From Clytia hemisphaerica (lineage: Eukaryota > Cnidaria > Hydrozoa > Leptothecata > Clytiidae): a DNA stretch of 64,000 nt. Below the pieces are notes generated by a model. It searched no databases. It saw only the letters and a list, made by a program, of their open reading frames with translations, and was not told the origin of the DNA. The DNA is taken from assembly GCA_902728285.1 (NCBI GenBank), contig CACVBU010000359.1, positions 3,324,386 to 3,388,385 on the forward strand. The letters are read 5' to 3'. Of the stretch, positions 12,260 to 64,000 are shown piece after piece. A program made the position numbers and the translations under genes. Numbering within the stretch: position 1 is the stretch's first letter; each line of letters opens with the position of its first letter.

Positions 12260-15067
12260 AAAATCACATACCACTGATACCTCTAGTACTCTTATTGATA
12301 ACATCTTTACGTCTCCCTTTCCCTGCTCTTCTTTCTCTGGAAATCTTACAGTTGCTATATCTGACCATCTTCCACAATTTCTAATTTTGAATACTGACTG
12401 TGACTCTAAGTGCAAACCTGAACTTCCTTTACGTCGAGATTGGTCTAGATTTGACGAGGCTAGTTTCAAAGAAGAATTTGATAGCGTCAATTGGAATGGT
12501 CTTCTTGAAATTGAAAAGGGAAATGTTGACTCATCTTTTGATTCTTTTTTGACTCGTTTTACTTCTTTGTATGATAAGCATGTTCCTTTGAAACAGTTGA
12601 CCAGACGTCAAGCTAACCTTCTACTCAAACCTTGGATCACCAAAGGTATTCTCGTCTCTATGAACATCAGAGATAGCCTTAAAACCGACTATTTGAAAGT
12701 CCCTGATTCTTCATCCGATCTTAAGAATTTTCTTCGTGACAGATTTAAATTTTATCGAAATCGCATTGTTTCTTATCCGTGCGAGTAAAAAACTCCATTA
12801 TTCTCGTTACTTTTTTCAAAACTCAGGCAATCTTCGACAATTATGGCAAGGCGTCAGAGAGATTATAGCTTCTCCTTCTTCTTCAAGCTCTATTTCTCTT
12901 AACATCAATGATTCCCTATCTTCGAATCCTGAAGAAGTTTCTGAAGCTTTTAACGATTTCTTTTCAACCATTGCAGGTAAAATACGATCAAAAATTCCCT
13001 TCACACGTCATCATTTTTCAGAATGGCTGAAGAATGACAATCGAAATACCGACTACTTTCTCATTGCTCCTGCTTCTAATCTTGAACTCTCAAAAGCTCT
13101 TATTTCTCTCAGTGAAAACAAGGCTACAGGTCCGAATAGCATCCCTTATCGAATCATTTCTTCCAATTTGGACACCCTTTCTTCGATCTTTACTCGTATT
13201 GTAAATCTCTCTTTCTTTACTGGTGTCTTTCCAAGTCAGCTGAAGGAAGCGAAAGTTATTCCTGTTTTCAAAAACAAAGGTTCTCCATTCGATGCTGAGA
13301 ACTACAGGCCGATTTCTCTTCTTTCTAATATTGACAAAATCTTCCAAAAACTTATGCATAAACGACTGATGAACTTTCTCGACCAATCAAATACAATCTA
13401 CCCATTACAATTCGGATTCCGATCAAATCATTCAACTGAAACAGCCCTCCTTTACTCCATCAACCAAATTTCAAGTGTTCTAGATAAAGGTAAGTATGGA
13501 TGCTCAATTTTTATCGATTTACAAAAGGCATTTGATACCGTTGATCACTCTATTTTACTGTCAAAGCTAGATTTTTATGGGGTTCGTGGGAAAGCTCTTG
13601 AATGGTTTCGATCATTTCTTTTTGAAAGATCACAGTTTGTTTCAGTATCTGGTAAAAACTCTTCTTCTAAACACATGCAACATGGTGTCCCCCAAGGTTC
13701 TGTTTTAGGCCCTCTACTCTTTCTCCTTTATGTTAATGATCTTCATATTGCTCTTCGCTATTCTCTTGTCAGTTTGTTTGCTGATGATACTATGCTCTTT
13801 TTTGCGAATGAATCTTTGAAACCGATCGCCAAACAAGCTAATATTGATCTGAAGCTTCTTATGAATTGGCTCAAAGCTAATAAAATCTCTATAAATGCTA
13901 GTAAAACCGAGCTCTTATTATTTCGTCCAATACGTAAGAAGATCGATTACGACTTGAAAATTAAAATCAACGGGCATCGGCTCAGACCAAGCAAAGTTGT
14001 AAAATACCTTGGGTGTATATTGATGAACATCTGAACTGGAAACACCACATCGATTTTGTCTGTAATAAACTAAAGAGAGCTAATGGAGCTCTGAGTAAAC
14101 TTCGGCATTATGTCGACAAGAAAACATTAACTTCATTGTATTTTTCTCTTTTTCAATGTCACATATCTTATGCAGCGCAAATCTGGGGGCAACGCCAGAC
14201 CATCCACGCCCGCCGAATTCTTATTCTTCAAAAACAAGCTCTTAGAATCATGTCTTTTTCTGACTTCCGTGCTCATTCTTTTCCTCTCTTTTTGCAGTTT
14301 AAACTTCTTTCATTTTTTGATTTTGTTAAATACCTTAACATTCTCTTTATTTTTAAACTTTTGAATCGAAAATTACCTCTTCCTCTCATACAAACTCTTG
14401 AGTACAAACGTTTAAATGATACAGACCGTCATGAAGTAATCCGTTGTAAGTCTGGACTTTTAAAAATACCTGAAGTAAAAACAGTGACTTATGGTAACTA
14501 TTCAATTTTATACCAATCCATCTTGGTTTGGAATGAAATTCAAGATTTCGTTACTTTCGATGATTCGTCTACACTAGCATTGGATCGTCTTAAAGATTTA
14601 AGTAAATTATATTTCCTTTCCTCGTACACTTGATTTGTTTTTGTTTTTGTTTTTTTATTTTTTTTTATTTTTTTTTAATTTTTATTTTATTTATTTTTTT
14701 TTCCCCCTCTCTTTTTCGAGTTTGATTTTAAATTTCAATAGGTTCTTCTTTTTTTATTTTAGTTTTTATTTTATTTTATTTTTTTTTATTTTAGTTTTTA
14801 TTTATTTTTTTTTTTTTTTTTTTTTTTTTATTTTTATTTTATTTTTTTTTATTTTATTTTTTTCCAATTTTTCGAAAATTATTTTATAAAAAATTTTTAT
14901 TTCACTTTGTTACTAGTAAGACCTTAGCAACTTTATTTTTCTTAGCTTTTCTTGTAATTATATCGTGCGGCCACCTCCTTAGTTTAGCTTTATGTCTATG
15001 AGTGTGGTCGCTCGTCTCGCTTTTTAGGACAAATAAATTACTTACTTACTTACTTACTTACTTACTA
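12260..15067 (+). mobile_element. CR1-like non-LTR retrotransposon, 5' truncated, frameshifted
   Basis: Three overlapping frames make one decayed polyprotein. Frame one (about 12266-12788) starts in the last part of the APE endonuclease (STLIDNIFTS, then ISDHLPQF). Frame two (about 12790-14034) holds the reverse transcriptase: NYRPISLLS, FGFRSNHSTETAL, IFIDLQKAFDTVDH, GVPQGSVLGPLLF, and the FADDTMLF catalytic box. Frame three (14013-14633) has the thumb and C terminus. Two frameshifts (near 12785 and 14020) break it. A T-rich tract fills 14633-14900, and the 3' end is an (ACTT)n tail at 15040-15067. Motifs fit the CR1/L2/Jockey group. It is probably dead. Confidence 0.85.
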
Positions 15068-20255: not shown

Positions 20256-20259
20256 TTAC

Positions 20260-20731
20260 CAAACCGAACGAAACGATCGAAAGATTTCTTTGGTAACACC
20301 ATCACATTCATCATCTTCATCAGGGCGTTGACCAGCTTTGTTTTTCAGTTCATGATCCGCTCCTTTGGCCAACAACCATCTGATGACGTCATGATTGTTG
20401 AGCTGTGCTGCACGATGCAATGGTGTGTCGTTATCTTCGTCTCTTCCATCGATCAACGTTTCGATTGTTTGTTGATCAAATTGTTCCAAATAACGAACTT
20501 CTCCAACCACACCAACCCAATGAAGAATGTTCGAACCATCATTGTACACGAGTGAAAAATCTTGAGGATAATTCATCAAGTGAACGAAAACGTCGAAACG
20601 ATCTTTCCAAACAGCCAACATGAGAAGTGTCCGATCAAGACCATCACGCAACGAGTTGACGATGTTCGGTTTTTGGCGGAAAATTTCTTCGAATTTCGCG
20701 AATTTCTTTTCGCGCAAAATATTCCAAACAT
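20260..20731 (-). CDS. Ankyrin-repeat exon
   Basis: On the minus strand the exon follows an acceptor (CTTTTTTTCTTCAG) and ends at a donor (GTTTG/GTAAGA). It is a 472-bp internal exon, phase 1 to phase 2. It encodes DVWNILREKKFAKFEEIF and then about four ankyrin units. The clearest are DGLDRTLLMLAVWKDRFDV, GSNILHWVGVVGEVRYLEQF and DNDTPLHRAAQLNNHDVIRW followed by LLAKGADHELKNKAGQRP. The stop just inside the donor would be skipped by splicing. The domain is certain in type, but the protein family cannot be told from one exon. Neighbouring exons were not found on either side. Confidence 0.75.
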
Positions 20732-20900
20732 CTGAAGAAAAAAAGAAGAAATTCAAACTTTTCACGGAATTGAAATGGACAGGTCTAAAACGCCTAATAC
20801 CTACCACTTAATACTTACTACCTAATACTTAATACTGACTATCTAATCCGTTTGGATACTTTACAGACCAGAACTTCCAGGCCCTGGCTCTCCTTCGTGT

Positions 20901-48665: not shown

Positions 48666-49985
48666 TTAATGATTTTCTGACCCAGGGTCCAATTTTTTAA
48701 AATTTCCAAAAATTAACTTCATTTGGGCTGCTGCTATCGGTTTGGTGACTCCTTTTGGTTTCAGAACTGATTTCGGGTTCGTAACTGATTTGGGTTTCCA
48801 GACAGCTTTTTGTTTAGTGGCATACTTTGGTTTTGGTAGGGCATCTGAAGTTGCATTGTTTGAGTATGATCCAGTCAAATAGGAAGTATCTTTCTTTTTT
48901 TTCGATTTACGTATCTGCCGCAAGTCCTGGCGACGGCGAATATATTTCTCGGCTACATTTTTGGCAGCTTGAAGAAGTCTAGTTTTTCTTTCTCTGACAA
49001 GACTCTTTTTAGCAATTTACCCAACATGAATGTGAAACTCTTTAAAGAGTTTGTAACGACCATATGACCTATCATTGAACTGGGATATGGCGTCACAAGC
49101 TCCAAGCGTGAATCGTTGGACACCGCAATAAAGTTTTTTTCGTCAGTAGGTCCACATAACCGAATTGATGGATTTATTGTGGTTTTGTGTCAGCCCCTTT
49201 TTGCAGCTCTCTAGCAAATTTTCATCAGAGAGTCTCTTAAAAATTGGTAGAAGCTCTGCCCTGAAGATATAAGGAATATACTTCTTGTTGATATTTGAAT
49301 TGGTGCCATCGGAAACGTCAGAACCTTTGGAATAATGTTGGTGTTGGTGGTCTAGGGTCTCTCCTTCTGTTCCTAGGATGGAGAAGTAGAATATTGCCCA
49401 GGCAGCATTTTTGATGAAAGCTACATCAGACTTATTATTTCTGATAGCATATCCATAGTACGTTTGGATTCGATCAATTTTGGCGTCCGTTAACCGCCCG
49501 ACGCCACCGACACCTTTGCCATCAGAAAGTTTTGCTTTCGAAGTTGTCATTACTGCTTTGTAGTAGGGCAGTCCCATCCTTTTTTGAATGTAGTGGCCAA
49601 TACAATCTTCTTTGACAATGATCATCCCCAAACTTTTCATAAACAGCATCTTTGACACTTCCAAACGCGCTTGAATCCCCGTCCCCATGTAGTATATTTC
49701 AGATTAGGTTTCTCGATCGAATGTAAAAAATCTCAATGGTACCCTCCACCTCCATTGAACCTGCACTTCCTGTGTGGTTAATACAGCATACCTCCTTGTG
49801 AGCCTCTTTCCACTCATCACTAGCATCTGGATTTGTTTTATATGCATGGCATACGTAATCCAAAACTTTCCCGGTATCAATCGAAATAACGTAAACCAAA
49901 CCGTTCAAGGAATTATGGCATACTATTATGGTCGTAACACTTTTGCCATGAGCCATCAACACTCACTGATGCCTCTAATATCTGT
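48666..49985 (-). pseudogene. Mutator-like transposase pseudogene
   Basis: On the minus strand, shifted frames give VSVDGSWQK (first catalytic Asp region), HNSLNGLVYVISIDTGKVLD, GSAGSMEVEG, IVKEDCIGHYIQKRMG, LSDGKGVGGVGRLTDAKIDR and IQTYYGYAIRNN. NHNKSINSVMW and a C-terminal LYCGVQRFTLGACDAISQFN block, followed by a basic Lys/Pro repeat tail, complete it. These are the landmarks of the Mutator-like transposase domain common in invertebrates. At least three shifts and one stop break the gene. The longest clean piece is 49143-49688. Confidence 0.75.
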
Positions 49986-52864: not shown

Positions 52865-53206
52865 ACAATCCTTCAAGAAATATTTGAGACAAAGGGGAGT
52901 TCCCGGTGTAATTTTGAACACCACAATTGATTTTTAGGCGCCTTAAACTACAGTTGGAAAGTAGAGTTTTAACTCTGAGTTTTAACATGAGACTTAAGAC
53001 TTAGGAGCTTAGGATCTCAGGATTTAAAAGCTCAAATTTGCTCGAATGAGGCTTGGAATATAGCCTAGAAGCCACCAAACACTTCTAAAATCGAAACATT
53101 CAATGGAAGAAAGTGGAAGTGCTTAAATAGCAATTCTCGCCCAAACTTTAAATTCTGAAAAACGTTAAAATACACTAAAATCTCAATATATTTCGTGGGA
53201 GATTGT
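52865..53206 (+). repeat. 342-bp direct repeat, copy 1
   Basis: Runs from ACAATCCTTCAAG to GGGAGATTGT. Nearly identical to 53530-53870, with a handful of one-base differences. Confidence 0.85.
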
Positions 53207-53529
53207 CTGAGAAACTAAAAAATGCCAAATTCTGCTCAGCGGGGGTTCTTATTCCAAGTTTAAAGCAATTTTTCTGGCTCAAAAATCCCCTTTCTTCAAT
53301 TTTAGGGGCTAAAACTCAAAAAAAAGTCAAAATTTCCTGAAATTTTCACGTTTTTGACTTTTCGTAAATTGGACCTTTGCAAAATATTAAATATTTCATA
53401 AAAAAGTGATTTTGGCCAGGAGCAAACCCTTCAAAATGGTCCGAAACATGCTTTAAGACGAATTTTAGAGGTTTTCAGGTAATTTTGGATCCCCCGCAGA
53501 GCAGAAATCAGCATTTTTCAGTTTTTCAG
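53207..53529. repeat. 323-bp spacer with inverted ends
   Basis: It starts CTGAGAAACTAAAAAATGCC..CTCAGCGGGGG and ends CCCCCGCAGAGC..GCATTTTTCAGTTTTTCAG, which are mirror copies of about 40 bp. Including the neighbouring GATTGT/ACAATC, the inverted ends reach into the direct repeats. Confidence 0.8.
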
Positions 53530-53870
53530 ACAATCCTTCAAGAAATATTTGAGACAAAGGGGAGTTCCCGGTGTAATTTTGAACACCACAATTGATTTTT
53601 AGGCGCCTTAAACTACAGTTGGAAAGTAGAGTTTTAACTCTGAGTTTTAACATGAGACTTAAGACTTAGGAGCTTAGGATCTCAGGATTTAAAAGCTCAA
53701 ATTTGCTCGAATGAGGCTTGGAATATAGCCTAGAAGCCACCAAACACTTCTAAAATCGAAACATTCAATGGAAGAAAGTGGAAGTGCTAAAATAGCAATT
53801 CTCGCCCGAACTTTAAATTCTGAAAACGTTAAAATACACTAAAATCTCAATATATTTCGTGGGAGATTGT
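53530..53870 (+). repeat. 342-bp direct repeat, copy 2
   Basis: Second copy; after GATTGT at 53865-53870 the sequence changes to unrelated GTGGCAACCTTGCCGGG. Confidence 0.85.
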
Positions 53871-54328: not shown

Positions 54329-54538
54329 AGGCTTGCATTTGTCATGTTAACTAAACCATTAGTTTCAGCCTTCAGGTATTTCATATGATAGTGTAAAATA
54401 TAACTGAAAGCATCTCTACAAGCTTTCAGGATGTCTCAACAACTATTGTCTATTTTACAGACCAGAATGTGCGAAAAATCCTCCAAATTAGATGTTTTCG
54501 TTTTATAAAATAGCCATCTGATAAAAGTTGGTAGAATT
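54329..54538. repeat. Left terminal inverted repeat of the XPG-type element
   Basis: About 210 bp from GGCTTGCATTTGTCAT to the CCATCTGATAAAA region. It pairs with 57425-57617. Shared blocks are CATATGATAGTGTAAAATAT, AACTGAAAGCATCTCTACAA, ATTGTCTATTTTACAGACCA and AAATTAGATGTTTTCG. One copy has a small insertion after GTCAT. Confidence 0.85.
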
Positions 54539-54767
54539 ACTCAAATAATAGCCACTCTAATGAGGGAACTACTGAGTTTGCTTTGAAGGGCCCAACTTAA
54601 TGTGTAATTTACAGACCAGAACGTTTACAAACCTTTATATGATCATTAGATTTGTCTTTTACAAATTCCGATCTGTTTATATTTTTAGAATTATAAATAA
54701 TGAACTGCATAATACACTATGAAAACCGAAATAATTACTCAACAATTAAGAAACTCTCGCAGAGGAA

Positions 54768-57348
54768 CATTGAAAGAATATTGATCTCATTAGAGCGCAA
54801 ACGATGGCCCATACTGCCATCCAGGAGAACGACTGGAAGTCTCTCATGCACTGTTGGAAGGAATTCCTGCCGATGTACTTTATTCTAAACAAACGGAACT
54901 ACGCAAGGTATGATAATCAATAAATTTTCATTAAATGTATCATGAACAAATCAATCAGCCTAACAACAAATTGATGACTAATAGGCTCAATTCTTTTTAT
55001 GAAAAGGAAGGTTTAGGTTACCATCATGATATACTATACTGATTTTGTATTTTTGTGTTAATCTTTGATACACAACAGGTACGGGGCTTATTACTACGAA
55101 AATATGACGAATCTCAAATCAAACTATCCTGGTGCAGAGAACGATTTATCACTAAACGGCATATCCGTTCAAGCGCAAAGTAACTACCCCATAATGACTG
55201 CCGCAGATCAGAGAAGGGAGCAGACAATTAATAGAGATGCCAAAACTACAGGTGAATTTTGAAATGAATTTGAACTGTAAATGTAACATTCTAGAAAAGT
55301 ATCGAAATACCTTTTGCGTTGGCAATACTGAAGGACATGGACTTTTTTTGCTTTATACTAAATAAACCTGTTCAAAATTATAGGTGGAGTCAAAGGATTT
55401 GCGTCCGATCAGATGAACGTACGAAAATGGTGCCTTAATCGCCCTAAGCAAGCGGACGTCATGCGAAGACTTAAAGATCTATGCGGGCTGGATGGAAAAG
55501 ATACACAATACAAACCACTTCGAAAGTCTCAAGTTGCCAAGTCAGAAAAGTACGTTCAGACCGTGACTGGGGTTTTGGATGAAAGGTTCCTGAATCCTCT
55601 TGGTGCTGATACCGACAAAGAAGAATGTGTTTACAACCTGAGTTCTGGCTTGCCGTTCAAAGGAGATGCAGATGATCTACTAAATATTAGAAAAAATGGC
55701 GAGGAGCTGTATAAAGATTTCAGAACACAACGCTTACACTCTAATGAAAAATCGATTCATGCCAGGCTACCGAAACAAAAACTAACATTGTTTAGCCAAA
55801 CGCTAAAAAAAACAAAGACAAAGAAAAGCAATTCATCTGAAGTCATAAAGGCAAACCAAAACATCTTAGGGAAACTTCTAACACTATCATCAATTATGAA
55901 GCAACCAATCGATTTTGAAAAGGCGTTATCATACCCACTTTATGATGTACCACTCAGTTTAGCTTTTCCCGATGGTACAAAGAGGTCAAACCAGAAAAGT
56001 CTCTTGCTCGATATCATCAAGGCAACAATGGAAACTAAAGACAAACTGAAAGCGAAGGAAAAAACGCTGGCAGAAAGAAAGATTACCACTCTCATCGTCG
56101 ATATGATTGCCCACTATCGAGTGATCTCGCAAAACCTCCCAGAGACGTTCGAAGAATGGATCAAAAAATTTCTGAGTACAATCCATAACGACGAGAGGTA
56201 CGAGCGCATTGATATTGTAGCCGACACGTACATCTTTCAGCATCAAATCTGGGGAACGCGCAAAGAGAGGGTCGTCAGACAGAATTTTGATGAAGTCAGT
56301 AAAAGGAAAAGTCCCGAGAGACATTGACAACTTTTTTAAAAATGATGAAAATAAGACACGACTAATCAATATGACATTTGATTACATCAGAGACAATGCT
56401 GAAGAGTGTTTGAAACTCCTAAAGTGTGATAAAGTTGTCATGTCTGGAGATGGTTACTGCAATATTCTAACCAAAACAGAATATATATCTCTAGATGAGC
56501 TTGCTAGTGACCAGGAAGAGGCTGACACTAAAGTCATTCTGCATGCCCTGAGTGTATTGTCCAACAGCCATGACAAAAAAGAATGCGTTTGTATTCGATC
56601 CCCGTCAGGCGACACTGACATCATTGTGATTGCTTTAGGTACAATAGCCGAAAGATCTAGAGTCCTCTTTGACTGTGGACCGTCTCGTCAAAAGACTTGG
56701 CTTGATTCAATAAGAATGCCAACAGATCTGCGCCAGGCATTGATTGGGTTTCATGCGTTAACAGGGAATGACTACGTCTCATCTTTCTTCAGAAAAAGTA
56801 AAGTACTAAAAAACGATAACCTTGCCATTGAGGCCCTTACCAAGCTTGGAGAAGGATGGGACCTAGCTGACGAAACCATAGATGTGTTGGAAAACTACAT
56901 ATGCAAGATATATGGATCTACCAAGAAAACCGTAAACGAGGCTCGCTTTCAACTATTTGAAAGAAAACAGAAGAAAGGAGTAATTGTTGACTTGTCGTTG
57001 ATACCGCCTTGCAGGTCAGCTCTATATCTACAGTTCGAAAGAGCCAACCATGTTGCAAGAATATGGAAGCTTTCCGGTACATCTATAATCGATGCTCCTC
57101 ATCCAGCAGGGCGTGGTTGGGACGTCGATGGGGACATAGAATGGATTAGAGAGATGTTTCCTGATGACATTAGGACTTTACTAATTTCTACACAGCATGA
57201 TAGTGACGGAGAGAGCGACAGCGAAAGTGAAGAACAAGAGGAGTATGGAGAAGAAGAAAGCGATGTTGAAGAATCCGATGACGACGAAAGTGACGAAGAC
57301 GACGATTGTGATGAAAAAAGTGACACGGACGATGAAGCTTTTGAATGA
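54768..57348 (+). CDS. Transposon protein with XPG/FEN-like nuclease domain
   Basis: Three exons are read. 54768-54907 starts after an AG at 54767 (less sure) and has RAQTMAHTAIQENDWKSLMH. 55079-55251 has GAYYYENMTNLKSNYPGAEN and ends TINRDAKTTG. 55384-57348 follows, with GGVKGF at the join. Splice sites GTATGA/ACAACAG and GTGAAT/AATTATAG keep frame. The last part carries three nuclease-like boxes: ASDQEEADTKVILHA, SPSGDTDIIVIAL and FHALTGNDYVSSFF. They correspond to the EAEA, D-x-D and GxDY boxes of XPG/FEN-1 enzymes. A very acidic Ser/Asp/Glu tail ends the protein. One frameshift near 56296-56312 (A/G-rich) separates two long frames. Academ-type transposons are reported to carry an XPG nuclease; this may be related. 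Confidence 0.7.
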
Positions 57349-57424
57349 AATGGACAATAAACTCAAACAGCCCTTAATTTTTATATTGCAGAGCATACGT
57401 AAATTTTCATTTTGATGTTATTCA

Positions 57425-57617
57425 CTATAAATTTTATCAAATCGCTACTTTTAACACGAAAACATCTAATTTGGAGGACTTTTTGCACATTCTGGTCTGT
57501 AAAATAGACAATAATTGTTAAGACATTCTGAAAGCTTGTAGAGATGCTTTCAGTTATATTTTACACTATCATATGAAATATCTGAAGGTCTCTGAAGGCT
57601 AATGACAAATGCAAGCC
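57425..57617. repeat. Right terminal inverted repeat of the XPG-type element
   Basis: Reverse-complement match to 54329-54538. It ends in GACAAATGCAAGCC, directly followed by the Rep unit at 57622. Only one TTTTACAGACCAGAATGTG iteron is present on this side. Confidence 0.85.
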
Positions 57618-57621
57618 ATCT

Positions 57622-57827
57622 ACAATCAGTGCAATAATATATTGGCACCAGCCTCAAAAAAACACTGAATTTACTCACTTCCCTCTCCTAAATCCCCTCC
57701 CCCCTAATTTCAATGGTTGAAGAAGGCAACAGGGCTGCAGACTCAACCATTGAAGCTTGGGGGGAGGGGAAATAAGCTTTAACATCAAAAATCAGTGTTT
57801 ACTGCCAAATATTATTGCACTGATTGT
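57622..57827. repeat. HP1, nested palindrome of Rep unit A
   Basis: Outer arms ACAATCAGTGCAATAATAT (57622-57640) and ATATTATTGCACTGATTGT (57809-57827) pair perfectly. Further in, CACTGA pairs with TCAGTG, and CCCCTCCCCCC pairs with GGGGGGAGGGG. An inner hairpin TTCAATGGTTGA (57709-57720) with TCAACCATTGAA (57743-57754) encloses a 22-nt loop with CTGCAG. The shape, a long arm with an internal stem, recalls terminal hairpins of linear single-stranded DNA replicons. Compared with unit B the leftmost AAATACAG of the arm is missing. Confidence 0.8.
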
Positions 57828-58097
57828 CTGTATTTGAGAAAAAAATTTGAAAAGGGAATTCCCTACTCCTTAGCAAAATAAAATGTAAACAAAAAGATCT
57901 AAACACAATAAAATCAGCTTAAAATAGTAGTAAACTCACAGCAAGCCTCCAGCGCACATGTTTTTGCCGCCATTTTGAATTGAAAAATTTACACATCCAG
58001 TGAATTGAGATTTCCCGATTTTTAAATCCAGTGAAAATGTAAACAAACTTTTTGGCGGGAAATCACAACTTTCGTTTTTAAAAATTTTTAAAACAAG

Positions 58098-59552
58098 ATG
58101 GCTGACGCAGATGTGACTCTTCCCTGTGAACCTAGGGATACTAAACGTACCTATTTATTAACTTACAGCCAAGCTGACTTGGCTAGGGTGCCCACAACTG
58201 ATTGCTTTGCTGAAATTGTTCTTGAGGCATTGGCACAGGGGAAAAGCACTGCAAAGCTTATAAAATGGGCTGCCTGTCGTGAGCCTCATGCTGATGGGGG
58301 AAAACATTTCCACCTCATCATGCATCTTTCAAAACCGAGAAAGTGGTCACCGCTGTTCGATTATATCAAGGATAAATGGGGCTTTAACGTGAACTTTCAG
58401 TATACAACCCAAGGCTATTTGAGAGGTTACAGATATGTTATCAAAGAAAAACTGGTTGAGTGCGTCGTCCACAGTCCCGATCACCCTGACTTGGCCAGTT
58501 GCCGCTCTCCGCAGTCGACTAAAGGATTTGTCACTTCTTCACAGAATGCAAAGCGTCGACGTCTTTCAAAGCAACTGGAGAAAGCCGCACCTGCCCCACC
58601 ACCCGTTACCCCCCACCCACCCACCAATCCTACTACCGCTCACCATGATAAGGAAACCCCACTGCGACCACCGCCAACAACACAATATAAAACACCGCGT
58701 GTTAACAAAGATGACGTTACCCGCTTTATAAAAAGGAACAATTTAAAAACAATCGAAGATTTGTTGGGCGAGGCAAAGAGACGCGAGGTTGAGGGTCTTC
58801 CTGATATTTATAATTTTATTGCTCGTCAAAGCGAAATAATGTTGGAGACTCAAATAAAAATGGTTTGGCGTCTTGAAGGGGCACCCGAGGTTGCAGCGCG
58901 CAAAAAACTTTCAAGGATGGATGTTATTCTAAGTTTCATGGAAAAGCCTTGTGTTGAAGATTGTGATGGCAAGTGGCTGGAGGCAGCCATAGAAATACTG
59001 GACAACAACAACATCAACGTGTTTTCTTTTGCTCAGGCAATGAGGGAATGTCTCATCGTTGGACGTGCAAAATATTTTAACGTTTTTCTTCATGGACCGA
59101 AAAATTGCGGAAAGTCTTTTTTATTGAACCCATTGGAGGACATTTTTAGATGTTTCATGAACCCCACCGAGGGGAAGTATTGCTGGGTCGGTTTGGATGA
59201 TTGCGAGGTTGCTGTGTTACAGGATCTAAGATGGTCACCCAACCTCATCAAATGGAGTGATTTTTTGGTTTTACTCGAGGGACAAACTGTTCACTTGGCT
59301 CGCCCGAAAAATGTCTTTCCAACAGACTTGACTATCCACAAATCAAACAAACTCCCCTTTTTTGCTTCAAGTAAGGCCCCCCTGGTTTTCTTGGACAGTG
59401 ATAACAAGGAAGTCACAAAGGAGACAGAAATGATGGACACCAGATGGAAGATTATTAAATTCACTTATTCAATGCCGGAAGAATCGCTAAGGCGTATTAG
59501 TGAGTGTCCACACTGTTTTAGCGTTTTGTTGACACGCGGAATGGAAGATTAG
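58098..59552 (+). CDS. Rep: HUH endonuclease joined to SF3-type helicase, unit A
   Basis: The product has 484 residues. N-terminal nuclease motifs are in CRESS-type order: YLLTYSQ (residues 19-25), the metal-binding HFH (70-72) and Y113-V-I-K116, whose Tyr should nick and hold DNA. A basic KRRR (152-155) may be a nuclear signal, and a Pro/Thr-rich linker spans about 163-200. The helicase part has Walker A GPKNCGKS (333-340), an Asp near 376 in the B region, and LPFFASSK (419-426) at the motif C position. P-loop and linker recall parvo/papilloma-type SF3 helicases more than CRESS ones. The ATG context (AAGATGGCTG) is good, the frame is intact, and there are no introns. HP1 lies upstream and HP2 just downstream. 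No capsid gene is seen. Confidence 0.8.
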   Translation: MADADVTLPCEPRDTKRTYLLTYSQADLARVPTTDCFAEIVLEALAQGKSTAKLIKWAACREPHADGGKHFHLIMHLSKPRKWSPLFDYIKDKWGFNVNFQYTTQGYLRGYRYVIKEKLVECVVHSPDHPDLASCRSPQSTKGFVTSSQNAKRRRLSKQLEKAAPAPPPVTPHPPTNPTTAHHDKETPLRPPPTTQYKTPRVNKDDVTRFIKRNNLKTIEDLLGEAKRREVEGLPDIYNFIARQSEIMLETQIKMVWRLEGAPEVAARKKLSRMDVILSFMEKPCVEDCDGKWLEAAIEILDNNNINVFSFAQAMRECLIVGRAKYFNVFLHGPKNCGKSFLLNPLEDIFRCFMNPTEGKYCWVGLDDCEVAVLQDLRWSPNLIKWSDFLVLLEGQTVHLARPKNVFPTDLTIHKSNKLPFFASSKAPLVFLDSDNKEVTKETEMMDTRWKIIKFTYSMPEESLRRISECPHCFSVLLTRGMED

Positions 59553-59630
59553 TTGTTTGGAGCGATGAGACTTTAAGTGTTGATATTGGTTTATGAGACT
59601 AACATGTTGTGTTGTTGAAGCCCAGTTTTT

Positions 59631-59905
59631 TAAGGTGCGTAACCAGTGCGTAACCACATGCGTAACCAAGGCAAAACAGGAAATTATGTAGAAAATCAAT
59701 GCGTAACCATGTGTAACCATGCGTAACCATGCGTAACCAACTTTTTTTTTAAAGTAATATATAATATATATTATATATTACTTTTAAAAAAAAAGTGGTG
59801 ACGCATGGTTACGCATGGTTACGCATTGATTTTCTACATAATTTCCTGTTTTGCCTTGGTTACGCATGTGGTTACGCATTGGTTACGCATGACAACTTTT
59901 GATAA
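59631..59905. repeat. HP2, iteron-rich palindrome of unit A
   Basis: Arms of about 135 bp pair around a perfect 34-bp AT palindrome (59751-59784). Each arm has five or six copies of TGCGTAACC (GGTTACGCA on the other arm) plus variants, and a 30-bp spacer (GGCAAAACAGG..ATGTAGAAAATC) without iterons. The left arm has one more iteron than the right. Such iterated boxes next to a Rep gene look like Rep-binding sites. Confidence 0.85.
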
Positions 59906-59959
59906 ATATCTAATATGATACATATTAAACTAGGCTATGTACATTTTATATAGTTGACC

Positions 59960-61111
59960 TTAGTATTTTGTTCTCAGACCTTTCTTTTGAATCACCAATC
60001 TCAATCTTTTGGGCATAGAGTTGATCAGATTGTTTACGGTTTGCACAGGGAACTCCATAAAAGTTTTTTCAATCCTGGTGGTAAACTCATCATAACTTTC
60101 CTTAGTTATGTTTTGATTTTTGGCGTCTTCGGCAAGTTTTTTGCGAATAAGGTGGAACAAGTTCTCAATTATATTCAAATCAGGTGATCTAACGGGAATC
60201 TTCACAAGCCCATAATCTTTACTTTCCCAAGTGTCCCTACACAAGGCGGCGTTTTGTTTTGGACATCCATCCATTAAGAAGGTACGTTGTCCATCCTTGG
60301 CCCCACAGTTGTCAAAAGCTTTGGGAAATTCCTGTCTAATTAAATTTGAAAAGTTTTTACCATTGATGGTCCACGTGTGGGGGTGACACATTACAACACC
60401 TTTTCCATAGGAGACAGCAACAAAGAACTTTGCAACTTTTCCTCCACTCCCCTCTTTCCTTCCTTTTGTCGTTATTTTGAGCCCCTCGTCTGGTCTTCGC
60501 CATGTCATAGATGTTACAGCCCGAGCTTCTCCGGCAGGGTTTGATTTGTGTGAGAAGCCCACACCGTCCAAGTAAAACCATACTTCATTCTGCCAATAAG
60601 ACAACGGTAGACGGATTTTCTCTTTCGCCCATGTAACGCGGAGCTTCTTATCCTTGGCGCTTAGAAGGCCCTTCTTGCGGGACTGCAAATATCTATAATT
60701 GTTCCTGCGTAAGCACCGAGCAATATCCCTTCCATGTATTCCTGCCTGCTGCAATCCAGTCTCTTCCAAAATCTTTCCTGCCGTGAAAGCAGCACCATCA
60801 ACACGGAGCTTCAAGAGCGCTCTGAGGATTATTCGTTCCTTTCGGGCATCCAATTTCTTTGGTCGGCCTGGATTGTTATGTCGGGCATCCATGGAAGCGG
60901 TTGGCTGATCCAATGGTTTCTTTGCATGCCGGCATATTGTTCTCGGTGAAACTTTCAATTTATGAAAACGTTGTATCAGTTCGGGGCAACTTACACCATG
61001 CTCTTGATGGAGGACGGCCAGCTTAATTGAATCTCTTGCCGATATCTTCTGATACGTCTTTTTATAATTTTTCACGTTCATTACGTTAATTTTGTATATG
61101 ATTGTTTTCAA
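59960..61111 (-). CDS. Tc1/mariner-type DD34E transposase
   Basis: The frame of 383 residues is intact. The N terminus has two helix-turn-helix-like regions: DSIKLAVLHQEHGVSCPELI..SPRTICRH, and GRPKKLDARKERIILRALLK with a Tc3-like part after it. The catalytic triad is D182 (VWFYLDGVGF), D281 (TFLMDGCPKQN) and E316 (RSPDLNIIENLF), with 34 residues between the last two. The family cuts and pastes DNA at TA sites. It converges on the Rep gene from the other side of HP2, 55 bp from that palindrome. I find no matched pair of terminal repeats immediately around this gene alone, so it is not a simple solo Tc1 insertion. Confidence 0.85.
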   Translation of the reverse strand: MKTIIYKINVMNVKNYKKTYQKISARDSIKLAVLHQEHGVSCPELIQRFHKLKVSPRTICRHAKKPLDQPTASMDARHNNPGRPKKLDARKERIILRALLKLRVDGAAFTAGKILEETGLQQAGIHGRDIARCLRRNNYRYLQSRKKGLLSAKDKKLRVTWAKEKIRLPLSYWQNEVWFYLDGVGFSHKSNPAGEARAVTSMTWRRPDEGLKITTKGRKEGSGGKVAKFFVAVSYGKGVVMCHPHTWTINGKNFSNLIRQEFPKAFDNCGAKDGQRTFLMDGCPKQNAALCRDTWESKDYGLVKIPVRSPDLNIIENLFHLIRKKLAEDAKNQNITKESYDEFTTRIEKTFMEFPVQTVNNLINSMPKRLRLVIQKKGLRTKY

Positions 61112-61630
61112 CTTTTTATTATCTAAAGATAAACAAATGAGAGTTATAACAGTGAAATGAAAATGTCTATATAATTTTTGCTTCTCATAATTGAATGTTT
61201 CCGCAGTTGCGGCTTTGCCGTAAAATAGTATAACTTTCTTTCATATCACTTTATCGGTTATTTTTTTGGTGTTGAGAAATGTTCTTATAAAAAAAGGATA
61301 AAGTAGTGACAATGTAAACAAAAAAATAATATAACCTTTCACACAGTAAACAAAAAAAATGATTGAGTTGAAAGACAACATAAAATTTGAAAACACAAAT
61401 GATGGTCATGGCCATCAGTGTATTTGTTTCGGTGGCTACCGGTTTGTTTGTTTTTGTGTCTGCCGCTCCACTATTCACCGCAAAAGAACCACCACCCCCC
61501 ATTAGAGTCATCATGGTAATATATATTTAACATCAAGAAGCCCTAAACTTGAAAATTAAAAGCATAAACAAGTCTATGAAAACAATAACAAAAGATTGAA
61601 AAAAGTTCTCAAAAATTTCTAAGTCCAAAA
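61112..61630. other. Upstream region of the transposase in unit A
   Basis: AT-rich. It holds GTTTCCGCAGTTGCGGCTTTGCC (small inverted repeat) and, on the minus strand, a frame 61514-61251 that starts MMTLMGGGGSFAVNSG and becomes hydrophobic. That frame could be an upstream exon or chance. No TIR for the transposase was found here. Confidence 0.35.
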
Positions 61631-61817
61631 AAATACAGACAATCAGTGCAATAATATATTGGCACCAGCCTCAAAAAAACACTGAATTTACTGAATGGTT
61701 GAAGAAGGCAACAGGGCTGCAGACTCAACCATTGAAGCTTGGGGGGAGGGGAAATAAGTTTTAACATCAAAAATCAGTGTTTACTGCCAAATATTATTGC
61801 ACTGATTGTCTGTATTT
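61631..61817. repeat. HP1, nested palindrome of Rep unit B
   Basis: Perfect 27-bp outer arms (61631-61657 and 61791-61817), starting AAATACAGACAATCAGTGC. The inner part keeps the TCAACCATTGAA stem side but lacks about 37 bp (CACTTCCC..CTAATTTCA) found in unit A, so the inner hairpin is shortened on one side. Confidence 0.8.
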
Positions 61818-62079
61818 GAGAAAAAAATTTGAAAAGGGAATTCCCTACTCCTTAGCAAAATAAAATGTAAACAAAAAGATCTAAATACAATAAAATCAGC
61901 TTAAATTAGTAGTAAACTCACAGCAAGCCTCCAGCGCACATGTTTTTGCCGCCATTTTGAATTGAAAAATTTACACATCCAGTGAATTGAGATTTCCCGA
62001 TTTTTAAATCCAGTGAAAATGTAAACAAACTTTTTGGCGGGAAATCACAACTTTCGTTTTTAAAATTTTTTAAAACAAG

Positions 62080-63531
62080 ATGGCTGACGCAGATGTGACT
62101 CTTCCCTGTGAACCTAGGGATACTAAACGTACCTATTTATTAACTTACAGCCAAGCTGACTTGGCTAGGGTGCCCACAACTGATTGCTTTGCTGAAATTG
62201 TTCTTGAGGCATTGGCACAGGGGAAAAGCACTGCAAAGCTTATAAAATGGGCTGCCTGTCGTGAGCCTCATGCTGATGGGGGAAAACATTTCCACCTCAT
62301 CATGCATCTTTCAAAACCGAGAAAGTGGTCACCGCTGTTCGATTATATCAAGGATAAATGGGGCTTTAACGTGAACTTTCAGTATACAACCCAAGGCTAT
62401 TTGAGAGGTTACAGATATGTTATCAAAGAAAAACTGGTTGAGTGCGTCGTCCACAGTCCCGATCACCCTGACTTGGCCAGTTGCCGCTCTCCGCAGTCGA
62501 CTAAAGGATTTGTGACTTCTTCACAGAATGCAAAGCGTCGACGTCTTTCAAAGCAACTGGAGAAAGCCGCACCTGCCCCACCACCTGTTACCCCACCACC
62601 CACCAATCCTACTACCGCTCACCATGATAAGGAAACCCCACTGCGACCACCGCCAACAACACAATATAAAACACCGCGTGTTAACAAAGATGACGTTACC
62701 CGCTTTATAAAAAGGAACAATTTAAAAACAATCGAAGATTTGTTGGGCGAGGCAAAGAGACGTGAGGTTGAGGGTCTTCCTGATATTTATAATTTTATCG
62801 CTCGTCAAAGCGAAATAATGTTGGAGACTCAAATAAAAATGGTTTGGCGTCTTGAAGGGGCACCCGAGGTTGCAGCGCGCAAAAAACTTTCAAGGATGGA
62901 TGTTATTCTAAGTTTCATGGAAAAGCCTTGTGTTGAAGATTGTGATGGCAAGTGGCTGGAGGCAGCCATAGAAATACTGGACAACAACAACATCAACGTG
63001 TTTTCTTTTGCTCAGGCAATGAGGGAATGTCTCATCGTTGGACGTGCAAAATATTTTAACGTTTTTCTTCATGGACCGAAAAATTGCGGAAAGTCTTTTT
63101 TATTGAACCCATTGGAGGACATTTTTAGATGTTTCATGAACCCCACCGAGGGGAAGTATTGCTGGGTCGGTTTGGATGATTGCGAGGTTGCTGTGTTACA
63201 GGATCTAAGATGGTCACCCAACCTCATCAAATGGAGCGATTTTTTGGTTTTACTCGAGGGACAAACTGTTCACTTGGCTCGCCCGAAAAATGTCTTTCCC
63301 ACAGACTTGACTATCCACAAATCAAACAAACTCCCCTTTTTTGCTTCAAGTAAGGCCCCCCTGGTTTTCTTGGACAGTGACAACAAGGAAGTCACAAAGG
63401 AGACAGAAATGATGGACACCAGATGGAAGCTTATTAAATTCACTTATTCAATGCCGGAAGAATCGCTAAGGCGTATTAGTGAGTGTCCACATTGTTTTAG
63501 CGTTTTGTTGACACGCGGAATGGAAGATTAG
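62080..63531 (+). CDS. Rep: HUH endonuclease joined to SF3-type helicase, unit B
   Basis: A copy of 58098-59552 with 483 residues. The proteins differ by one missing His in the Pro-rich linker and by I/L near the end (RWK-I/L-IKF); other changes are silent. All nuclease and helicase motifs are kept. The near absence of amino-acid changes over 1.45 kb points to a recent duplication, and both copies remain open. The spacing to HP1 and HP2 is the same as in unit A. Confidence 0.8.
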   Translation: MADADVTLPCEPRDTKRTYLLTYSQADLARVPTTDCFAEIVLEALAQGKSTAKLIKWAACREPHADGGKHFHLIMHLSKPRKWSPLFDYIKDKWGFNVNFQYTTQGYLRGYRYVIKEKLVECVVHSPDHPDLASCRSPQSTKGFVTSSQNAKRRRLSKQLEKAAPAPPPVTPPPTNPTTAHHDKETPLRPPPTTQYKTPRVNKDDVTRFIKRNNLKTIEDLLGEAKRREVEGLPDIYNFIARQSEIMLETQIKMVWRLEGAPEVAARKKLSRMDVILSFMEKPCVEDCDGKWLEAAIEILDNNNINVFSFAQAMRECLIVGRAKYFNVFLHGPKNCGKSFLLNPLEDIFRCFMNPTEGKYCWVGLDDCEVAVLQDLRWSPNLIKWSDFLVLLEGQTVHLARPKNVFPTDLTIHKSNKLPFFASSKAPLVFLDSDNKEVTKETEMMDTRWKLIKFTYSMPEESLRRISECPHCFSVLLTRGMED

Positions 63532-63610
63532 TTGTTTGGAGCGATGAGACTTGTGTTGATATTGGTTTATGAGACTAACATGTTGTTGTGTTGTTGAAGC
63601 CCAGTTTTTT

Positions 63611-63864
63611 TCATGCGTAACCAATGCGTAACCACATGCGTAACCAAGGCAAAACAGGAAATTGTGTAGAAAATCAATGCGTAACCATGTGTAACCATGC
63701 GTAACCAACTTTTTTTTAAAAGTAATAGATAATATATATTATATATTACTTTTAAAAAAAAAGTGGTGACGCATGGTTACGCATGGTTACGCATTGATTT
63801 TCTACATAATTTCCTGTTTTGCCTTGGTTACGCATGTGGTTACGCATTGGTTACGCATGAAAAT
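63611..63864. repeat. HP2, iteron-rich palindrome of unit B
   Basis: Same design as 59631-59905 with slight length changes: fewer left iterons, and the AT centre begins AAAAGTAATAGATAATATAT. The TGCGTAACC boxes are conserved in both arms. Confidence 0.85.
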
Positions 63865-63927
63865 TTTTGATAAATATCTAATATGATACATATTAAACTA
63901 GGCTATGTACATTTTATATAGTTGACC

Positions 63928-64000
63928 TTAGTATTTTGTTCTCAGACCTTTCTTTTGAATCACCAATCTCAATCTTTTGGGCATAGAGTTGATCAGATTG
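63928..64000 (-). CDS. Tc1/mariner-type transposase, unit B (3' end only)
   Basis: The last 73 bases of the window repeat the 3' end of the transposase gene of unit A, stop codon TAA included, at the same distance from HP2. The gene is cut by the window edge. Confidence 0.8.
   Translation of the reverse strand, partial: NLINSMPKRLRLVIQKKGLRTKY

Follow-up and report, generated by a model that had tools for sequence, protein, structure and literature searches.

A Rep gene and a DD34E transposase gene in one tandemly arrayed mobile element of Clytia hemisphaerica

The window analyzed here, 64,000 nt from the hydrozoan Clytia hemisphaerica (C254:3324386-3388385, where C254 denotes contig CACVBU010000359.1; genome of 417 Mb in 951 contigs), ends in tandem units in which a palindrome (HP1), a viral-type Rep gene, a second palindrome (HP2) and a convergent DD34E transposase gene follow one another. 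Is this a chance neighborhood that was duplicated, or a single mobile element that uses both enzymes? A preliminary description of the sequence had proposed the latter, with replication as a circle or hairpin and integration by the transposase. The two genes were found to form one inherited element with defined ends and a duplicated target dinucleotide, and replication of a circular form by Rep is the probable source of its tandem copies.

Two genes, one element

The order HP1, Rep, HP2 occurs twice head to tail in the window, with the Rep genes 3,982 nt apart, much as described before (about 3.98 kb), and the first convergent transposase gene is complete. The second, which had also been claimed, is present on C254 (C254:3388316-3389446, minus strand), with just its C-terminal codons in the window (63928..64000), where the window's right end cuts through the array. 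Altogether the array comprises four HP1-Rep-HP2-transposase units. Their Rep genes start at C254:3382483, 3386465, 3390433 and 3394402, and behind every one of them lies a convergent transposase gene; units 3 and 4 lie beyond the window and have their transposase genes at 3392285 and 3396254. The Rep genes of unit 1 (58098..59552, plus strand, 484 aa) and unit 2 (62080..63531, plus strand, 483 aa) are both open and 99.6% identical, in agreement with the earlier claim, and the latter is identical in DNA to those of units 3 and 4.

The same pair of genes recurs throughout the genome. All counts for this genome are lower bounds, as 88 of 306 Rep, 109 of 316 transposase and 40 of 75 HP1 candidates were scored. 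A convergent transposase gene was detected within 2.5 kb of 63 of the 83 merged Rep genes or gene fragments, the opposite orientation was never seen (0/83), and at 20 Reps no transposase was detected. In 15 of the 17 own-genome pairs aligned, Rep is just 31-36% identical to that of the window. Nevertheless, the Rep and transposase protein distances agree closely (Mantel r 0.875, against a maximum of 0.22 in 2,000 permutations). This test used the 17 own-genome and 10 outside pairs, including partial transposases (as aligned, those of C924a, C625 and P0019/P0181 have incomplete DDE motifs).

The ten outside combinations of Rep and transposase each share a source and exactly the same longest-contig size, compared with a mean of 0.78 matches at shifted sizes; nine of the contigs are of 3.9-5.3 kb and one is of 28.7 kb. 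Such size matching infers rather than proves a common contig, and about one of the ten matches is expected by chance. Rep and transposase are thus probably together on most of these contigs.

Copying of chance neighbors by segmental duplication would be in keeping with the near-identical tandem units on C254. It was the alternative named in the preliminary description, and it is refuted by the pair's recurrence at numerous loci where Rep shares just 31-36% identity with that of the window and where the distances agree. Equally, the two genes are not always apart elsewhere, a pattern that, according to the same description, would have counted against its proposal. Rep and transposase are one inherited unit and belong to one element. 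The family is abundant and divergent within this one genome, includes copies with both genes open and has relatives in other datasets. In addition, C839 carries a Rep-deleted derivative that has HP1 at each end and is flanked by TA.

Rep is a HUH nickase with one tyrosine (motifs HFH and YVIK) fused to an SF3 helicase (GPKNCGKS). The nickase part is geminivirus-like and the helicase resembles those of adeno-associated virus (AAV) and papillomaviruses; Foldseek matches place the helicase fold close to AAV Rep and B19 NS1. A Rep profile gave weak but plausible matches in the PDB, including papillomavirus E1 and geminivirus Rep, while a single Rep sequence gave nothing useful there. The transposase of unit 1 (59960..61081, minus strand; the ATG at 61081 was chosen as the start) has the spacing D-98-D-34-E. 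It matches DDE_3 and Sleeping Beauty, with an IS630 match (3.4e-19) and a Tc3-type helix-turn-helix match both below cut-off, that for IS630 being the curated one. The catalytic DDE residues are retained in 24 of the 27 transposases aligned, and the remaining three are pieces that do not reach the motifs. Replacement change is low (omega) in several close Rep pairs.

Protein searches returned 83 Rep and 119 transposase relatives, and the Rep profile found 358 relatives among 8,000 candidates scored; two from the octocoral Paramuricea clavata are named among the 120 matches listed. Five Rep relatives (P0080, P0213, P0216, P0258 and P0268) carry a precomputed PF01057 (Parvo_NS1) annotation, which suggests a bridge to parvovirus NS1. 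Two EukProt transposase relatives, P0123 and P0136 (76-78% identical), have gene numbers only three apart (19364 and 19367), which hints that another species also carries an array.

Might the units instead be endogenous copies of a small CRESS- or RepE1-type virus that acquired a transposase? The profile's contact with papillomavirus E1 and geminivirus Rep is consistent with this, as are reports (PMC11071296) of RepE1 cressviruses that encode capsids, in data from sea anemone and elsewhere. Against it, unit 1 of the window has no open reading frame of at least 100 aa besides Rep and transposase, and no capsid gene was seen there. No relatives were found in IMG/VR, in two scans that may omit records of the window's own genome, or in a GTDB scan, and PHROGs gave no match. 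A viral origin of the unit was set aside after these scans. With ends and target duplication that are transposon-like, such an origin is highly improbable.

HP1 ends and the target site

The HP1 of unit 1 (57622..57827, plus strand) is a 206-nt imperfect palindrome with tips ACAATCAGTG/CACTGATTGT and a C-rich/G-rich inner stem. Across the family HP1 is mostly 165-206 nt long with ACAAT...ATTGT tips, and most of its outer stem differs from family to family. The C-rich/G-rich inner stem was present in 10 of the 11 HP1s compared, the other being an internal C254 copy without the C-rich arm, and in 10 of 11, C303 being the exception, this stem ends on its inner side in CAATG(G)TTG. Left and right HP1 are direct repeats in all 12 elements for which both could be compared, 10 of 10 by alignment and two more by their tips. 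Identity between them is 95-100% within the aligned stretch (10 elements), with 10 substitutions in C61 and 9 in C839 when aligned globally. Had both ends been copied from one template, the HP1s of a single copy should resemble each other more than those of different copies; this comparison gave a mixed picture that does not decide the matter.

TA lies at both outer ends of the C254 array, at 57621..57622 of the window on the left and at C254:3398336-3398337 on the right. Of 11 full elements, 9 have it on each side, the others being C61 (AA/AA) and C854 (CA/TA); this set excludes the one-ended C441, C751 and C866 as well as C827, whose right HP1 runs into a stub. Solo HP1 copies gave a similar result, with TA on both sides in 13 of 17, mostly as CTA...TAG, one copy with CA/CA and three with unequal flanks (L070, a partial match inside C522, was excluded). 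In two of the elements counted, C564 (near 554,000) and C907, HP1 was located by a search with the tips and the C303 HP1; it stands at both ends of each, flanked by TA.

The comparison of empty with filled sites that had been suggested for mapping the ends bore this out. At two of six sites queried, an unoccupied stretch carries a single TA at the site (C806:332774-332971 and C339:544084-544201); both stretches are paralogous rather than the same locus in another individual, and the C339 alignment is good on the right and brief on the left. HP1 is a hairpin that forms the terminal direct repeat of the element, and its outer tips mark where insertion takes place. The usual target is TA, commonly within CTAG, and the dinucleotide is duplicated, which fits a Tc1/IS630-type DD34E transposase. 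Thus the earlier proposal of one element stands as far as the element itself, its ends and its target duplication are concerned.

At C827:1783200-1784600 (L049), some 25 bases of a further unit adjoin the right HP1 before unrelated sequence begins; this is a truncated second unit.

Arrays, HP2 and the mode of replication

HP2 of unit 1 (59636..59889) is a 254-nt palindrome with an AT-rich center in the gap between Rep and transposase, and is proposed as the Rep origin; that of unit 2 spans 63608..63863. In the window its arms are 94 nt long and 97% complementary. Given these arms and the near-complete identity of units 2-4, the C254 repeats are not due to chance. A palindrome lies between Rep and transposase at 18 of 19 loci. 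Within the unit 1 gap the 8-mer GTTACGCA occurs 11 times on both strands together, and the commonest gap 8-mer exceeded all 200 shuffles at 15 of 16 loci, with at least five copies at 10 of 16 (shuffles moved two-base blocks, and copies were counted on both strands). The 8-mer differs by family: GTTACGCA in C254, GCGTCACC in C827, CAACACGA in C625, CATTTCTC in C854 and GCGTTACC in C491. Judged from this layout, the HP2 repeats have the pattern of iterons that a Rep specific to each family would recognize, and this is what a Rep origin should look like.

CRESS-DNA viruses have a nonanucleotide origin such as TAATATTAC. This motif was found in the gaps of C827 and C625 and is absent from the other 14 of 16, including that of C254; a role as an origin motif common to the loci is not supported.

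Tandem arrangement is frequent. Of the 83 Reps, 44 lie in 15 same-strand, head-to-tail arrays, defined by spacings of 3.0-9.2 kb (two gaps, of 6.5 and 7.1 kb, may conceal a missed unit). No opposite-strand Rep neighbor was found within 10 kb among the 83. Both fetched edges of C491 (1-1600 and 14100-16098 of 16,098 bases) consist of array with no unique flank, and this contig could be an extrachromosomal or an unplaced chromosomal array.

These observations bear on parvovirus-style rolling-hairpin replication with HP1 as the telomere. HP1 is indeed a terminal hairpin with an inner stem, and the helicase fold is close to those of AAV Rep and B19 NS1. Parvovirus terminal hairpins show flip/flop orientation, which is not seen here. 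The constant HP1 orientation (12/12) speaks against hairpin replication and better fits circular replication. With no opposite-strand neighbors and with the repeated motifs sitting in HP2, the hairpin mode is improbable, and this half of the earlier proposal is not upheld.

The C254 array itself contains a single HP1 between adjacent units. Units 2, 3 and 4 are identical in the Rep, transposase, tail and HP1-to-Rep stretches, with one indel in the HP2 region. Unit 1 matches them in transposase and tail and differs leftwards from just past HP2, the last difference being at window position 59896. This switch makes the array a mosaic, joined near HP2. At its two ends HP1 is of full or almost full length, whereas the HP1 separating units 1 and 2 (61639..61810, plus strand) has a 35-nt deletion in the C-rich arm that is common to the three internal HP1s. 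Two consecutive HP1 copies close the array on the right (C254:3397930-3398336; L032 7531-7937). They abut, the first being without its last bases (ATTGT), and may have been left by cleavage or by a second insertion event.

How might such arrays form? The reading favored here, and considered probable, is that of an autonomous two-enzyme element of about 4 kb, TA-[HP1 - Rep> - HP2 - <transposase - HP1]-TA, in which Rep replicates a circle and the transposase inserts it. An excised circular form with one HP1 would arise by excision or replication. Rep would bind the family-specific iterons of HP2, nick there and replicate the circle, giving head-to-tail concatemers. The transposase would then insert monomers or multimers through the HP1 ends, so that adjacent units of an array are separated by one HP1; the same ends would let lone HP1s move or stay behind as solo copies.

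A Rep-carrying DD34E transposon could, on the other hand, form arrays and solo HP1s by unequal crossing-over between its direct HP1 repeats, in the manner of solo and tandem long terminal repeats and with no circle. The direct HP1 at both ends, the single HP1 between C254 units and the abundance of solo HP1s agree with this, and units 2-4, identical save for one indel beside a mosaic unit 1, are as local expansion would give. The head-to-tail order reported earlier is confirmed, yet for this reason it is not proof of rolling-circle products. More than half of the Reps lie in arrays, across several divergent families, a frequency probably too high for crossing-over between repeats as short as 170-206 nt; furthermore, both C491 edges are array. 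Low Rep omega in several pairs and repeated motifs that differ by Rep family make a replication step probable. Crossing-over as the whole explanation is rated as rather unlikely, yet it is the main rival and a live one. Array frequency, head-to-tail order, and Rep with its iterons tilt the balance toward replication without settling it.

Several observations weigh against an autonomous element replicated as a circle. No partner was detected for the 20 Reps mentioned above or for 43 of 106 transposase genes or fragments, among the part of the candidates that was scored. The C254 array did not come from one template, as unit 1 up to just past HP2 and the end HP1s differ. The two HP1s of one element are in some cases no more alike than HP1s of separate copies (C61, C839), C850 (L019) has a palindrome core with no intact HP1 tips in the stretch covered, and the right end of C827 is the stub of a second unit, not TA. 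At C303 there is no clear HP2 palindrome. At 6 of 16 loci the iterons are weak, with 3-4 copies; one of these six does not exceed the shuffles, and a palindrome by itself doubles 8-mer counts. Omega is higher in some Rep pairs (C625a/C625h, 0.69; C625a/C850, 0.40), and C924a/C924b differ by one replacement and zero silent changes. Finally, the relative P0265 is 98% identical to the C625 Rep, so some of the outside data may stem from the source host or a near one.

Other features surround the array. Directly to its right (L032 from about 7938) lies a satellite-like tandem repeat with a unit of roughly 175-180 bases. Just to its left, window positions 54369-57588 hold a different element with 140-nt inverted ends that are 94% complementary; one open frame in it (56221-57345) has no Pfam match, and a second spans 55362-56327. 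At 52865-53870 two tandem copies of about 345 nt lie 664-665 nt apart and share 99-100% identity. Open frames elsewhere in the window encode a reverse transcriptase (12697-14031), an ankyrin-repeat protein (20259-20807) and a weak Mutator-like match (49146-49703).

Comparison with known systems

The element may well represent a new class of mobile elements in eukaryotes that is half transposon, half plasmid, with a circle replicated by Rep from HP2 and monomers or concatemers inserted by a DD34E enzyme via HP1; this is considered somewhat more likely than not. If so, it would stand as a living link from Tc1-type transposons to DNA viruses that encode Rep. To our knowledge, cut-and-paste transposons are thought to gain copies only via host repair or passage through replication. 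A replication initiator of its own beside the integrating enzyme would solve this problem directly and would explain the arrays, and such an element would show how small DNA viruses and transposons may become one another.

Tc1/mariner/IS630 transposons have the transposase as their sole gene, in an element of about 1.3 kb. The Clytia element is like them in its DD34E triad, TA duplication and matches to IS630 (below cut-off) and Sleeping Beauty, but is about 4 kb long, carries an additional gene of replication type, ends in direct repeats that are hairpins and contains an iteron palindrome. Helitrons also use a HUH enzyme in a eukaryotic transposon, together with an SF1 Pif1-type helicase and no target duplication; here an SF3 helicase and TA duplication are found instead. 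Parvoviruses and AAV share the SF3 helicase fold and hairpin ends, which HP1 provides at both ends, but differ in that the present element lacks flip/flop (12/12 direct), has no VP capsid gene seen in unit 1 and inserts with TA duplication. The fusion of a one-tyrosine HUH nickase to an SF3 helicase is that of CRESS-DNA viruses, without a capsid gene in window unit 1. RepE1 cressviruses are alike in their CRESS-type, papillomavirus E1-like replicase. As described in the available part of this 2024 preprint (Buck et al., PMC11071296), they bear capsid genes, have possible endogenous copies in anemones and are given no mention of a transposase, whereas the Clytia unit 1 has a transposase and no capsid gene was seen in it.

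Coral CMITEs (PMC2872659) are short elements with inverted repeats around a conserved interior; they are able to build tandem arrays and are linked to piggyBac-like transposons. They are likened here by description, through their arrays, and are not tied there to a Rep-bearing element. The HUH replicon network is treated in a paper on single-stranded DNA virus origins (PMC6668415, in the part available). Among the open-licence titles and abstract beginnings listed, with most subscription papers and Repbase outside the scope, no Rep-DD34E element with hairpin direct repeats and arrays was found. Absence of the element from print is not shown by this, and it is regarded as a variant of a thinly known kind.

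One such relative surfaced in body text. The geminivirus-like transposon of the black truffle Tuber melanosporum, according to the excerpted text of a 2011 paper (Liu et al., PMC3198968), combines a degenerate, geminivirus-like Rep with transposase genes in one repeated eukaryotic element, whose inverted ends are 37 bp long and which shows no clear duplication of its target. Its Rep and one transposase reading frame are interrupted and the other transposase is truncated; the excerpt does not mention arrays or an origin palindrome. Rep and transposase within one set of ends are thus common to both. Compared by description, the Clytia element differs from it in its open reading frames, hairpin direct-repeat ends, duplicated TA and E1/AAV-like helicase.
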